Assembly: GCF_014852005.1 (NCBI RefSeq)
Contig: NZ_JACVAU010000003.1
Coordinates: 371,065 to 435,064, forward strand
DNA from: Pseudoxanthomonas sp. PXM03
GTDB taxonomy: Bacteria > Pseudomonadota > Gammaproteobacteria > Xanthomonadales > Xanthomonadaceae
Reading direction: 5' to 3'
Length of the DNA stretch: 64,000 bases
Within the stretch, counting starts at the first letter, position 1. The number at the start of each line of letters is the position of its first letter. Positions 51,422-64,000 of this stretch are shown here, one piece after another. The position numbers and the translations under genes were made by a program. The notes under the pieces are model-generated. The model made no database searches, was not told the DNA's origin, and was given only the letters and a program-made list of their open reading frames with translations.

Positions 51422-52426
51422 TCAGCGGTCCAGGGGACTGAGCACCGCGCCAGCGCCCCGATTGAGGACGTGTGTGTATATCTGGGTCGTCGCGACGTCC
51501 TTGTGCCCGAGCAGTTCCTGCACGGTGCGGATGTCGTAGCCGCTTTCGATCAGATGGGTGGCGAAGGAGTGGCGCAGCGTGTGCGCGGTCACCGGCTTGG
51601 TGATGCCCGCCGATACCCGCGCCCGCTTGAGCGCCCGCGCCAGCATCGCCTCGTCCAGGTGGTGGCGTCGCCACCGGTCATCGCGTGGATCCAGACTGAG
51701 GTTCCGCGCGGGGAACACGTACTGCCACCCCAGTTCGCGCCCGGCGCTCGGATACTTGCGCGAAAGCGCATGCGGAAGCCAGACCTCTCCCGCACCCTGC
51801 GCCAGGTCTTGCTGGTGCAGGACGTGCACGCGCTCCACCTCCGCCTGCAACGCCGGCACCAGGGACGCAGGCAACACCGTCCGGCGATCCTTTCCACCCT
51901 TGCCCTCCCGCACGGTGATCTCGTTGCGGGCGAAATCGACGTCCTTCACACGCAGGCGCACGCCTTCCATCAATCGCATGCCGCTGCCGTACAGCAGCCG
52001 GGCGAGCAGCGCCATGCGTCCGTCCATGTGGGCCAGCAAGGCTCTTACCTCCGAATGCGACAGCACCGTGGGAACCCGCAGCGGTCGTTTGGCGCGCACC
52101 ACATCGTCCATCCATGCGAGCTTCAGGCCCAGGACCTCGCGATACAGGAACAGCACTGCGGACAGCGCCTGGTTCTGCGTACTCGCCGCCACCTTGCCCT
52201 CGACTGCCAGGTTCGTCAGGAATGCCTCGACCTGCACCGCCCCGAGCTCGCGCGGATGACGTTTGCCATTGGCCAGAATGAACCGCCGGATCCATCCCAG
52301 GTAAGCCCGCTCGGTGCGCAAGCTGTAATGGCCCACGCGCAACCTGCGCGTGACTTCCTCCATCAACCCCACGCGCCCTACCGCCCCCGGGCCCGATACC
52401 GCCCCGTCTCCCGACTGATATTCCAT
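51422..52426 (-). CDS. intI: Integron integrase (tyrosine recombinase)
   Basis: This is the site-specific recombinase that moves gene cassettes between attC and attI. The 334-residue form (ATG at 52424-52426) has the SAM-like N-domain (VGHYSLRTERAYLGWIRRFI) and the catalytic domain with Arg in LLYGSGMRLMEG, HTLRHSFATHL and the nucleophile Tyr in TTQIYTHV. The integron-specific insertion absent from other tyrosine recombinases is clear: LSRKYPSAGRELGWQYVFPA. It appears intact. An internal ATG at 52361-52363 is an alternative start. It faces away from the cassettes, the normal layout, and abuts comEC. Confidence 0.97.
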   Translation of the reverse strand: MEYQSGDGAVSGPGAVGRVGLMEEVTRRLRVGHYSLRTERAYLGWIRRFILANGKRHPRELGAVQVEAFLTNLAVEGKVAASTQNQALSAVLFLYREVLGLKLAWMDDVVRAKRPLRVPTVLSHSEVRALLAHMDGRMALLARLLYGSGMRLMEGVRLRVKDVDFARNEITVREGKGGKDRRTVLPASLVPALQAEVERVHVLHQQDLAQGAGEVWLPHALSRKYPSAGRELGWQYVFPARNLSLDPRDDRWRRHHLDEAMLARALKRARVSAGITKPVTAHTLRHSFATHLIESGYDIRTVQELLGHKDVATTQIYTHVLNRGAGAVLSPLDR

Positions 52427-52523
52427 AGCCCCTGCATTCCATGCGACTAATGCAGGCAACGTCGCATCCGCGCTGCACCAAGGCCATCAGCCAAACGATT
52501 GATCCAGCATAGGAAAACCCCGA

Positions 52524-52552
52524 TTGACGCCCACAAGGCAAGCCTGAATACT
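52524..52552 (+). promoter_or_regulatory. Candidate cassette promoter Pc
   Basis: TTGACG (52524-52529, five of six to consensus) and AATACT (52547-52552, four of six) are separated by 17 bases and point into the cassette array. It lies between intI and attI, where Pc is expected in chromosomal integrons. Confidence 0.5.
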
Positions 52553-52560
52553 CCGCGCTA

Positions 52561-52593
52561 TTACCCCGGAATGGGGTCTACTAGGTGTTAGGC
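52561..52593 (+). other. attI site (cassette insertion point)
   Basis: The first junction G-TTAGGC (52587-52593) marks the crossover point between the integrase region and cassette 1. Upstream is a short hairpin ACCCC-GGAAT-GGGGT (52563-52577). The exact boundary of attI cannot be read without binding data. Confidence 0.7.
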
Positions 52594-52622
52594 CCAGTCA
52601 GACATTCTCAAAGGCCCTATCC

Positions 52623-52922
52623 ATGCTCAACCGCGCCTTTCTTCTCGGCACACTGTTACTAGCTAGCGGGGCATCCTTAGCCAAGCCCAGCACTGAGCTT
52701 CCTGAAGCACTACGCTCGGCCGAGGCTTATGTCTCAAGCCATAAAATTTCAAACACCCACCGTTACCTTGCTAGCATCTCGTGGCATGAGGAGCCAGGCC
52801 ACCCAGAGAAAAGTTGCTGGTCGGTCATGTGGCTACCAAACGAGCTAGCGTTTGATGCCCAGCTGGTCGTGTGGGTGTGCGGCGATGGCAGGATCAGCCA
52901 CCAAGCTGGCGGCTGGGCCTAA
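52623..52922 (+). CDS. Cassette 1: secreted hypothetical protein, 99 aa
   Basis: The product has a signal peptide (MLNRAFLLGTLLLASGASLA) and a mature part of about 79 residues with two cysteines (SCWSVMW and VWVCGDG) that could form a disulfide. AAGG lies eight bases before the ATG. Its TAA stop is made by the attC sequence CCTAAC. As the first cassette it should be the most strongly expressed from Pc. No family recognised. Confidence 0.75.
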   Translation: MLNRAFLLGTLLLASGASLAKPSTELPEALRSAEAYVSSHKISNTHRYLASISWHEEPGHPEKSCWSVMWLPNELAFDAQLVVWVCGDGRISHQAGGWA

Positions 52923-52976
52923 CAATTCATTCAAGCCGAACCCGCTTCGCGGGTCGGCTTAATTCTGGTGTTAGGC
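52917..52976 (+). other. attC site 1
   Basis: 60 bases from GCCTAAC to GTTAGGC with the stem AAGCCG-A-ACCCGC / GCGGGT-CGGCTT and TTC loop. Confidence 0.95.
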
Positions 52977-52979
52977 AGC

Positions 52980-53282
52980 ATGGACATAGATCAGGTTGCC
53001 GTTGTTGAGATCGATCTAGACGGTCGCTTGCTTGTTGCGCCAGCAACCCACGAGTTTCCGTTCGCATACCGCGAGGCAATGGAGGTGTCATGGGACCCAG
53101 CCACCCGAACACTCGGCTCCCCAATTCCGCGGGAATGGAGCTACGGCCGTTGGTTTCAACAAATCCAATCGGTCGCATCTGCGCAAGGCGTAGCGCTTGT
53201 CTTGGGTTCCAGCACCCGCTGGGTCAACGTGCCTGCTGATATCCAGACAGACATCTCGGAGGCAGCGGTTCATGCTGCCTAA
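52980..53282 (+). CDS. Cassette 2: hypothetical cytoplasmic protein, 100 aa
   Basis: ATG 52980 lies four bases after the cassette junction, with TTAGG of the attC as the only ribosome-site candidate. The product (MDIDQVAVVEIDLDGRLLV) has no signal or membrane segment. The final TAA is contributed by the attC. Pattern of an immunity or small regulatory protein is possible but unsupported. Confidence 0.75.
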   Translation: MDIDQVAVVEIDLDGRLLVAPATHEFPFAYREAMEVSWDPATRTLGSPIPREWSYGRWFQQIQSVASAQGVALVLGSSTRWVNVPADIQTDISEAAVHAA

Positions 53283-62993: not shown

Positions 62994-63047
62994 CAATTCA
63001 TTCAAGCCGAACCCGCTTCGCGGTTCGGCTTAATTCAGGCGTTAGCC
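62988..63047 (+). other. attC site 26, asymmetric stem
   Basis: 60 bases, ACCTAAC to GTTAGCC. The left arm has ACCCGC but the right arm GCGGTT, so pairing shifts to AAGCCGAA/TTCGGCTT plus CCGC/GCGG. Confidence 0.94.
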
Positions 63048-63050
63048 GCT

Positions 63051-63491
63051 ATGGGGAGCACATCGGTGACTGAGGTAGAAGCAGACGTAGTTAGGGTTGT
63101 CTCGGCTATTCCAGCACTACTGGATGGCCACCCCGTGGGGGCCGCGGACTACTCACCAGAAAGCCTGCGCGTCATTGAAGCGGTGCTGGAGGAGGCTGGT
63201 CCGTATTGGTCGGAGCTCCCGGAAGGCGAGCTCAATGCCCTCGTGCAGCAGTTCGGCTGCTATGTCCTAGAGGTCGCTCACCATCAGTTTGGTGGCGAGT
63301 ATCGTTGGCATGCCGAGATGGGCCAGCCTGTACTGGTGCTAGGTGAGCCAACTCGTCATATCGCAATCGCTACATGGGCTAAGGTTCGTCGCAGGTTGAA
63401 GGACCCAGCCGACAGCATCACTTTCTTCTATGAGGGCGTTGCTGAGCGTATGGCTACTGCTCCGCCTGGTTATCGGGCGCTACTGGCTTAG
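63051..63491 (+). CDS. Cassette 27: hypothetical protein, 146 aa
   Basis: ATG 63051, three bases after GTTAGCC. Acidic soluble protein (VTEVEADVVRVVSAIPALLDG; LVQQFGCYVLEVAHHQFGGEYRW; FFYEGVAERMA). The layout recalls SMI1/immunity-like helical proteins, without firm support. Own TAG stop just before the attC. Confidence 0.75.
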   Translation: MGSTSVTEVEADVVRVVSAIPALLDGHPVGAADYSPESLRVIEAVLEEAGPYWSELPEGELNALVQQFGCYVLEVAHHQFGGEYRWHAEMGQPVLVLGEPTRHIAIATWAKVRRRLKDPADSITFFYEGVAERMATAPPGYRALLA

Positions 63492-63492
63492 C

Positions 63493-63552
63493 GGCTAACA
63501 ATTCATTCAAGCCGAACCCGCTTCGCGGGTCGGCTTAATTCAGGTGTTAGCC
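63493..63552 (+). other. attC site 27
   Basis: 60 bases, GGCTAAC to GTTAGCC, standard stem. Confidence 0.95.
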
Positions 63553-63578
63553 ATCACAACGGACATCAGGGCTAATCC

Positions 63579-63854
63579 ATGGAGTTCTCTGCTGTAGACG
63601 TTCTTGATGTGTCTCAGGCCGGCTTCATTGCCGTGGTTGTTACCCCTGACTTGCCTGAATTTCCTCCCGGCAGCGTCCATCCGGTACATGTGACCCGCCC
63701 TGATGGGAGCCTTCTTGAGGTGCCAGCCATTGTTGAGTACCGAAGGCGCCCACCACTCAAGCCAGTGCTCCTCCGATTCCCTGGGCTCGTTCCCGCTGAT
63801 ATTCCAATAGGCTCTACACTCGTCATCGATCAACATGGCCGAGTTGATGGCTAA
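63579..63854 (+). CDS. Cassette 28: hypothetical protein, 91 aa
   Basis: ATG 63579 behind CAGGG. The product (MEFSAVDVLDVSQAGFIAVV; VHPVHVTRPDGSLLEVPAIVEY) looks like a small beta-barrel domain. Its TAA is supplied by the truncated attC that the IS element interrupts. No family recognised. Confidence 0.72.
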   Translation: MEFSAVDVLDVSQAGFIAVVVTPDLPEFPPGSVHPVHVTRPDGSLLEVPAIVEYRRRPPLKPVLLRFPGLVPADIPIGSTLVIDQHGRVDG

Positions 63855-63874
63855 CAATTCATTCAAGCCGAACC
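63849..63874 (+). other. attC site 28, left part only
   Basis: GGCTAAC followed by AATTCATTCAAGCCGAACC matches the other sites, then diverges at 63875. The rest presumably lies beyond the inserted element. Confidence 0.85.
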
Positions 63875-64000
63875 GGTAGTTCCCACGGTTCAGTGGACAC
63901 CTTGACCTAACCCTCAGGAGTGTCCCAATGCCAAAGCCAGGCCCCAGAACCATCCATCGCTACAGCGATGCCTTCAAGGCTTCTGCCGTCCGCTTGAGCC
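63875..64000 (+). mobile_element. IS element, left end (probably IS3 family), partial
   Basis: Sequence unlike attC begins at or just before 63875 and carries a transposase start. The segment GGTTCAGTGGACACC is probably at or near the terminal repeat, but only one end is visible. The element continues past the window. Confidence 0.7.
63928..64000 (+). CDS. Transposase OrfA, partial (IS3-like)
   Basis: ATG 63928 behind AGGAG. The visible 24 residues (MPKPGPRTIHRYSDAFKASA, then VRLS) match the N-terminus of the small helix-turn-helix OrfA of IS3-type elements. The gene runs off the window; family assignment is from this short stretch. Confidence 0.75.
   Translation, partial: MPKPGPRTIHRYSDAFKASAVRLS

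Follow-up and report, generated by a model that had tools for sequence, protein, structure and literature searches.

In integrons, an integrase inserts cassettes at attI and exchanges them via folded attC bottom strands. Elements known to target attC are insertion sequences (ISs) of the IS1111 type and group IIC introns; group IIC-attC introns are retroelements with a ribozyme, in contrast to the DNA transposon considered here. The IS1111-attC group (ISKpn4, ISPst6) uses a DEDD transposase guided by a seekRNA and occupies one end of certain attC sites. IS3 elements, IS911 for example, move as an excised circle.

The sedentary integrons of Xanthomonas sit at the ilvD locus, and CALINs are present in about half of Xanthomonas genomes, according to the available part of PMC12444791. 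In the V. cholerae array, the available part of PMC11023631 describes IS3-family copies of 1261 bp, one in a cassette gene and the other in the last cassette, and reports that recombination between two of them rearranged the array experimentally; these copies belong to the same family as the IS described below, and attC targeting is not mentioned in that part. The literature that we searched, with most subscription journals and ISfinder outside its scope, yielded no IS3-type element targeting attC.

Here we analyze a window, the whole stretch of 64,000 nucleotides of Pseudoxanthomonas DNA under study. We give a probability of roughly 0.85 to the reading that it holds a sedentary chromosomal integron beside comEC, with an IS interrupting its 28th attC, the IS belonging to an IS3-family clade for which attC is the likely homing target. 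As far as the available descriptions go, the locus shares intI, attI, uniform attC and mostly unknown cassettes with the sedentary integrons of Xanthomonas and Vibrio. Taken alone, the integron is a large yet ordinary sedentary chromosomal integron of Pseudoxanthomonas; the truncating IS and the further arrays of the genome, neither of which the initial annotation noted, are the less expected part.

The integron and its interrupted last attC

The initial annotation proposed an intact integron integrase, an attI region, and 28 small genes in the same direction, with 27 complete attC. We find the following features:

49027..51420, - strand: comEC, ORF beside intI, chromosomal neighbor fixing the position
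51422..52459, - strand: intI, integron integrase (TIGR02249 and PDB 2a3v matches)
52535..52593, + strand: attI, block conserved in 7 loci; crossover next to G 52587 (GTTAGGC)
52588..52970, + strand: cassette 1; ORF 52623-52922, no Pfam match; attC 52920-52974
52971..53330, + strand: cassette 2; ORF 52980-53282, Hfx_Cass5 (PF18287); attC 53280-53334
53331..53836, + strand: cassette 3; ORF 53347-53748; long attC 53757-53840 (folded)
53837..54262, + strand: cassette 4; ORF 53846-54214, DUF7716; attC 54212-54266
54263..54718, + strand: cassette 5; ORF 54273-54710; attC 54668-54722
54719..55081, + strand: cassette 6; ORF 54728-55033; attC 55031-55085
55082..55453, + strand: cassette 7; ORF 55091-55405, DUF2694 under cut-off; attC 55403-55457
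55454..55862, + strand: cassette 8; ORF 55464-55814; attC 55812-55866
55863..56313, + strand: cassette 9; ORF 55874-56305; attC 56263-56317
56314..56762, + strand: cassette 10; ORF 56322-56714; attC 56712-56766
56763..57129, + strand: cassette 11; ORF 56788-57120; attC 57078-57133, most diverged
57130..57431, + strand: cassette 12; ORF 57144-57383; attC 57381-57435
57432..57902, + strand: cassette 13; ORF 57442-57894; attC 57852-57906
57903..58221, + strand: cassette 14; ORF 57922-58173; attC 58171-58225
58222..58686, + strand: cassette 15; ORF 58237-58626; attC 58636-58690
58687..59017, + strand: cassette 16; ORF 58706-58948; attC 58967-59021
59018..59422, + strand: cassette 17; ORF 59027-59374, DUF6794; attC 59372-59426
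59423..59981, + strand: cassette 18; ORF 59433-59933, YcxB-like; attC 59931-59985
59982..60313, + strand: cassette 19; ORF 59993-60265; attC 60263-60317
60314..60776, + strand: cassette 20; ORF 60339-60728; attC 60726-60780
60777..61092, + strand: cassette 21; short ORF 60788-60937 (49 aa); attC 61042-61096
61093..61587, + strand: cassette 22; ORF 61116-61532, OmpA family; attC 61537-61591
61588..61937, + strand: cassette 23; ORF 61611-61889; attC 61887-61941; near-copy of cassette 25
61938..62245, + strand: cassette 24; ORF 61975-62190; attC 62195-62249
62246..62595, + strand: cassette 25; ORF 62269-62547; attC 62545-62599; near-copy of cassette 23
62596..63041, + strand: cassette 26; ORF 62610-62993; attC 62991-63045
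63042..63546, + strand: cassette 27; ORF 63051-63491; attC 63496-63550
63547..63874, + strand: cassette 28; ORF 63579-63854; left half of attC only, 63852-63874
63875..64000, + strand: left end of IS3-family IS, inverted repeat GGTAGTTCCCACGGTTCAGTGGACACC; truncated by contig end
63928..64000, + strand: incomplete start of IS orfA, MPKPGPRTIHRYSDAFKASAVRLS..., matching orfA of relative L139

The intI product matches the TIGR02249 profile at 478.8 bits (cut-off 265), the only integrase over that cut-off in the whole genome, and PDB 2a3v, which we take to be V. cholerae IntI4, at E 1.9e-92. The alignment to 2a3v covers residues 38-345 with one single-residue gap and spans the integron-specific insertion, whose absence the initial annotation had named as counter-evidence. 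This integrase would act in the manner described above, with attI as the entry point for cassettes and folded attC bottom strands as the substrates of exchange. Cassettes 23 and 25, which are near-copies (98%), and the differing first cassettes of related loci hint that it may recombine its own sites. The LexA-box consensus of E. coli was matched 13 times in the window compared to 18.3 by chance, with no match near intI, and is uninformative here.

The attC sites were located by pattern and verified via folding and stem-pair counts. The complete sites, spanning 52920 to 63550, indeed number 27 (all 55-56 bp long except one of 84 bp), and the 26 short ones have a mean column identity of 96%, bearing out the high uniformity claimed for them. 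Three attC folded as bottom strands gave z scores of -6.3, -4.3 and -4.1; 12 of the 17 stem pairs are invariant, and another shows covariation (C-G, G-C and A-U). Every cassette (28/28) has one + strand ORF, that of the 21st being merely 49 aa long. The Pfam cut-off is passed by 5 of these 28 ORFs, and a PADLOC search for anti-phage cassettes matched 0 of the 98 cassette ORFs of the genome, in line with the earlier statement that almost no product is recognizable. The contig stops where the window stops; from synteny, the comEC-lolD locus likely totals about 29 cassettes plus an IS, which agrees with the proposed minimum of 28.

An IS3-family IS interrupts the 28th attC with its left end, and the window includes only the left 126 bases of it. 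Full-length relatives measure 1240-1249 bp. The relative L139 has the features of an IS3 element, namely an HTH_Tnp_1 orfA (match to PF01527), an HTH_21 and rve orfB (match to PF00665), an A-rich slippery site, inverted ends and a length of about 1.25 kb. Likeness to the IS1111-attC group lies in the specific attC place, but the elements of our clade are two-ORF IS3 elements that encode an rve transposase and sit within the attC stem; membership in that group, which is defined by a DEDD transposase, is rejected on the rve match of the relative's orfB.

Both IS copies in the genome lie within attC, with 2/2 left ends and 2/2 right ends in attC halves, and the assembly breaks in two arrays because IS copies sit there. 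The IS is not assembled in this genome: its orfB was not found among the at most six candidates scored in the assembly, in which five small contigs read as N. This search and two others score at most six candidates per genome, so that their counts are lower bounds. Among 14 Xanthomonadaceae copies for which both ends are available, the flanking 3-mers, which an IS3-type target duplication of 3-4 bp would make identical, are identical in 4. Pairing of contigs by 3-base flanks (C5-C3, C7-C4) was dropped on that count and because synteny gives C5-C4 and C7-C3.

Insertion positions across genomes

Our survey of 395 Xanthomonadaceae genomes gave 99 end-pattern matches (the four of this genome included), all of which were examined. 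Seventy-five are element-like over the first 100 bases (41 left ends, 34 right ends), and the other 24, which do not resemble the element in an ungapped comparison of 100 bases, were set aside. The attC left arm is matched by 37 of the 41 left ends at a single offset and in a single orientation (at least 12/20 bases; 18 of the 37 match 20/20), a threshold reached by shuffled flanks in 20 of 8200 cases. The right arm is matched by 26 of the 34 right ends (at least 14/20 bases; shuffles, 14 of 6800).

Left ends L157 and L160 and right ends L153, L174, L193, L194 and L302 lie outside attC. L151, L173 and L183 fall under the threshold yet are attC-like by eye, and L300, counted as a miss, resembles another attC type by eye. 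Among the matches set aside, L155, L162, L170, L181 and L195 still reach at least 14/20 in the left arm, L299 looks by eye like a different type of attC, L154 and L180 are not attC-like, and the remaining 16 of 24 are plain chance matches.

In 35 of the 37 left ends, a GA at the attC stem precedes the insertion by three bases. The junction would fall three bases past a base predicted to be unpaired in the folded attC, with the transposase genes oriented with the cassettes. The transposase might instead recognize a linear L-box that attC carries (ATTCAAGCCGA in Xanthomonadaceae) and not the folded site, a serious contender to which we give somewhat less than an even chance. The L-box is almost invariant inside each host lineage, and L141, L170 and L171 keep it while TAAC is absent, both as a linear reading would have it. 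The mostly constant distance from the stem GA speaks against a linear reading, as does use of the same attC place despite other L-boxes: TTTCAGCGGA in genome G011, CAAGGCGGA in Rhodanobacteraceae, and further variants in L242, L243 and L246. The Rhodanobacteraceae copies, with OrfB 66-70% identical, occupy this place in 7 of 8 flanked left ends (by eye). From these positions, homing of the IS to attC is likely, with the transposase probably picking the left arm as its target.

Phylogeny of the transposase

In a transposase tree, one clade of 33 (support 100/99) holds all 22 attC-labelled rows and four opposite-facing ones; L205, L213 and L219 are copies inside the clade yet outside attC. A pairing score of p ≤ 0.05 is reached by 15 of the 22 attC-labelled rows compared to 2 of the 29 scored rows outside the clade (6 of the 35 outside rows are without usable ends), these two being L221 (0.030) and L247 (0.050, doubtful ends). 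The labels were set partly by eye: the attC label of L141, L145, L148, L200 and L257, and the labels of L217, L218 and L220, the last given as 'no'. Left out of the tree are nine loci, namely L149 plus eight extra copies from genomes that it already includes, as well as fragments shorter than 200 aa, such as L143, L207 and L208. L267, also omitted, has a pairing p of 0.015 without TAAC or GTTA. Two plasmid records match the IS at E ≤ 1e-50, each about 41% identical; the Candidatus Tenderia copy falls inside the attC clade and the Phenylobacterium copy outside.

It is improbable that the ISs landed in attC by chance or because insertion there is harmless, with survival rather than target choice making the pattern. 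Cassette arrays do tolerate insertions, and the V. cholerae array has an IS3-family copy within a cassette gene (PMC11023631, available part). However, harmless insertion predicts scatter over cassettes, in either orientation and at any attC base, whereas place and orientation are common to 37 of 41 left ends, on which random insertion is rejected; in addition, none of the 35 rows outside the clade is labelled attC.

Chromosomal position and arrays without an integrase

Besides our locus, intI adjoins comEC in six further named Pseudoxanthomonas loci (L026-L031), with comEC identities of 92% in L026 and 78% in L028. In P. mexicana (L028) and in the complete Pseudoxanthomonas genome G253, the far array end is lolD, giving the order lolD-array-intI-comEC. 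The attI block is conserved in all 7 aligned Pseudoxanthomonas loci (our own counted), which confirms the proposed attI region, and divergence starts directly after GTTA; cassette content varies between related loci. The integron thus holds a fixed chromosomal position across species, as expected of a sedentary chromosomal integron, and the earlier assignment as sedentary, not mobile, stands on this position and the uniform attC. Recent acquisition of a whole or partial mobile integron would account for cassette content differing among relatives but is disfavored by the same chromosomal place in several species, with comEC directly beside intI and attC uniform, and we regard it as extremely improbable.

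By pattern, the genome has 98 complete attC, mostly of 55 bp and making up about 0.13% of the genome. Of these, 71 lie outside the intI array, in CALINs (clusters of two or more attC with no intI close by) on contigs C6 (48 attC), C7 (9 and 4), C8 (6) and C3 (4). One of these intI-less arrays occupies a position common to another species. Extra integrase-less arrays are common to Xanthomonas and this genome, going by the available part of PMC12444791; the difference lies in the locus, comEC-lolD here compared to ilvD in Xanthomonas, and in the 71 of 98 attC found away from intI.

Discussion

We hypothesize that the IS travels as an excised circle, like IS911. Because an inserted copy splits attC, excision of the preceding cassette is likely blocked. 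Copies within an array have a common orientation, so that a crossover between two of them would remove the intervening cassettes. We give even odds to a broader proposal: an IS3 clade with attC as its dedicated target may read the arm beside the extrahelical base, have a single origin among untargeted IS3, inhabit the chromosomal integrons of several lineages of Gammaproteobacteria, prune and fuse arrays via same-facing copies, and add an independent third type of attC parasite to the IS1111-attC elements and group IIC introns.

The attC sites are the handles for cassette trade between bacteria, resistance cassettes included, and at least 27% of resistance cassettes have attC types conserved in one of three taxa, of which Xanthomonadales is one (PMC8352920, available part). 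With 98 attC and a single integrase over the cut-off, this genome has most of its cassettes far from that integrase; one array sits at the same position in two species, and long-lived satellite arrays are therefore open to direct study. An attC-homing IS offers a route to test whether a DNA transposase reads folded attC, and a transposon lineage with attC as its likely habitat would shape the length and content of arrays.

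Integrase Locus and Its Cassettes

The window forms the right-hand terminus of contig C5 in a 4.03-Mb genome of 11 contigs. Its integron integrase gene is intact, and the product aligns with V. cholerae IntI4 (2a3v) across residues 38-345; by IntI, the nearest named relative is Pseudoxanthomonas sp. 3HH-4 (94% identity).

51422-52459, minus strand: intI, integron integrase (TIGR02249, 478.8 bits; cut-off 265)

The attI site that follows intI is kept in 7/7 aligned Pseudoxanthomonas loci, with divergence starting directly past GTTA. Downstream of it lie 27 complete attC sites and then a 28th, present as its left half only. 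Mean column identity is 96% among the 26 short attC sites, the bottom-strand folds of three sites have z-scores of -6.3, -4.3, and -4.1, and one stem pair is seen as C-G, G-C, and A-U. GC content falls from about 0.67 to 0.53-0.59 inside the array. Five tRNA genes (Val, Leu, Gly, Cys, Gly; window 37331-39963, minus strand) are unrelated to the integron.

Each of the 28 cassettes carries one plus-strand ORF. The Pfam cut-off was reached by five (Hfx_Cass5, DUF7716, DUF6794, YcxB, and OmpA), and cassette 23 nearly duplicates cassette 25 (98% across 300 bases). Genome-wide, the 98 cassette-direction ORFs gave 16 Pfam families at E ≤ 0.001 and no match to PADLOC models.

Insertion Sequence Ends and Array Placement

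The last attC breaks off at 63875, where the left end of an IS3-family insertion sequence (IS), GGTAGTTCCCACGGTTCAGTGGACACC, starts. A left end also interrupts an attC where C7 ends, and right ends adjoin attC halves at the starts of C3 and C4; the assembly has these two left and two right ends in total, and the interior is absent from it. In relatives with both ends, the element measures 1240-1249 bases, with one exception of 621. The full-length copy at locus L139 has orfA (PF01527) and orfB (PF00665, PF13276, PF13683) in two frames around AAAAAAAG, and D146, D206, and E242 are common to all ten aligned OrfB transposase parts.

By pattern, the genome has 98 complete attC sites, 27 in the integrase array and 71 elsewhere (C6, 48; C7, 9 and 4; C8, 6; C3, 4), with only one integrase above cut-off. 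The four in the small array within C7 (L016 8191-10217; C7 ~120-122 kb) are diverged, old, and apart from the others. In P. mexicana, the gene order is lolD, 20 attC, intI, comEC, and in the complete genome G253 (same genus), lolD and intI-comEC flank a run of 48 attC matches (560.7-581.4 kb). A second large array in G253 (38 matches, 2.719-2.735 Mb) has the same flanking genes as the C6 and C8 arrays. In four other genomes, the C7 flank lies next to the C3 flank, with five attC between them in G294, one in G274, and none by the pattern used in G117 and G372. This synteny joins C5 to C4 as the integrase locus and puts satellite arrays at C6-C8 and C7-C3; judged by its flanking genes, the C6-C8 array place is common to two species. 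The IS 3-base flanks conflict with these pairings (C5-C4 and C7-C3), since they pair C5 with C3; exchange between both IS copies could be the cause. A third cluster in G253 (contig C1, 981.6-987.6 kb, 13 attC matches) matched none of the compared PXM03 flanks.

The C6 array (L015) contains the same cassette three times (120-490, 5328-5704, and 18903-19273), so this satellite array has gained copies though without an adjoining intI. This cassette occurs once in L027, a named Pseudoxanthomonas locus, at ~98% identity. Across the genus, a strict attC pattern was present in 33/38 genomes (84 matches in PXM03 and 100 in G253). Chromosomal integrons and CALINs are already described in Xanthomonas, a related genus (PMC12444791).

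Most Copies in Relatives Sit in attC

The IS end pattern gave 99 matches in 51/395 family genomes. All 99 were retrieved and classed by their first 100 bases as left-like (41), right-like (34), or unlike either (24). At one offset, 37/41 left ends match the attC left arm in at least 12/20 bases (20/8200 in shuffled flanks), 18 of them perfectly (20/20), and GA directly precedes the last three flank bases in 35/37. Of the right ends, 26/34 agree with the right arm at 14 or more of 20 bases (shuffles, 14/6800). Left ends sit at left arms and right ends at right arms, so that the copies face one way.

Similar OrfBs (E ≤ 1e-70) occur in at least 13/397 genomes of the order. Family f12, which we take as Rhodanobacteraceae, has OrfBs 66-70% identical, placed in attC of another sequence; by eye, 7/8 left ends having a flank sit in attC. 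Copies in the relative G011 lie inside yet another attC type. Insertion lies 23 or 24 bases away from TAAC (25 in L206); by eye, and as we read the computed folds, the constant feature is a position three bases beyond the A predicted to be unpaired in the folded attC.

Four left flanks not in a complete attC (L170, L171, L160, L213; three genomes) have a common GGAGTCCAT..CATT context, perhaps a second kind of IS target. At L299 and L300 (G142), IS ends lie by TAAC...GGACGG and TAAC...GGACCG, resembling an attC type outside the scoring.

At E ≤ 1e-85, further OrfBs were found in at least 37/369 class genomes and at least 16/398 phylum genomes. For a tree of 68 rows, ends were located by pattern or inverted repeats, and attC labels were assigned partly by eye. 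All 22 attC-labelled rows and four opposite-facing ones (L210, p 0.010, and L215, p 0.015, scored; L217 and L218, by eye) group in a single 33-row clade (support 100/99); none of the 35 rows outside it is attC-labelled. Scores of p ≤ 0.05 were obtained for 15/22 attC-labelled rows versus 2/29 scorable rows outside the clade, and the label requires 3 changes on the tree versus 18.9 in shuffles. Seven clade rows carry the label "no": for L205, L213, and L219 the ends lie outside attC, for L214, L216, and L228 no ends were located, and L220 is attC-like by eye. At L210 and L215, clade members face the other way and lie nearer the loop; their attC-like sites are on the Candidatus Tenderia electrophaga plasmid and in genome G903.

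These positions suggest that an IS3-family clade likely homes to attC. ISs of IS1111 type that target attC are known (PMC11187229), and in leaf-surface arrays 23% of transposases were IS3, attC targeting there being attributed to the IS1111 group (PMC11089894). Among the matches listed in the literature searched, there was no IS3-type attC element.

Proposed Mechanism and Consequences

Members of the IS3 family, IS911 among them, are known to transpose through a circular form that is then inserted into the target (PMC9330008). The present IS would likely be carried as such a circle and insert into the attC left arm as its target. We consider it slightly short of an even chance that the transposase reads the L-box, a linear sequence carried by attC, rather than the attC fold: L141, L170, and L171 keep the L-box while TAAC is absent, which favors sequence, whereas the use of different L-boxes at the same attC place favors the fold.

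Flanking 3-mers are equal in 4/14 Xanthomonadaceae copies. Unequal flanks would be expected after recombination between copies that face alike within one array, an event that would also remove the intervening cassettes. In the V. cholerae array, an experiment showed that two IS3-family copies recombined, and no target duplication was found (PMC11023631). We infer that IS copies may prune the cassette arrays here.
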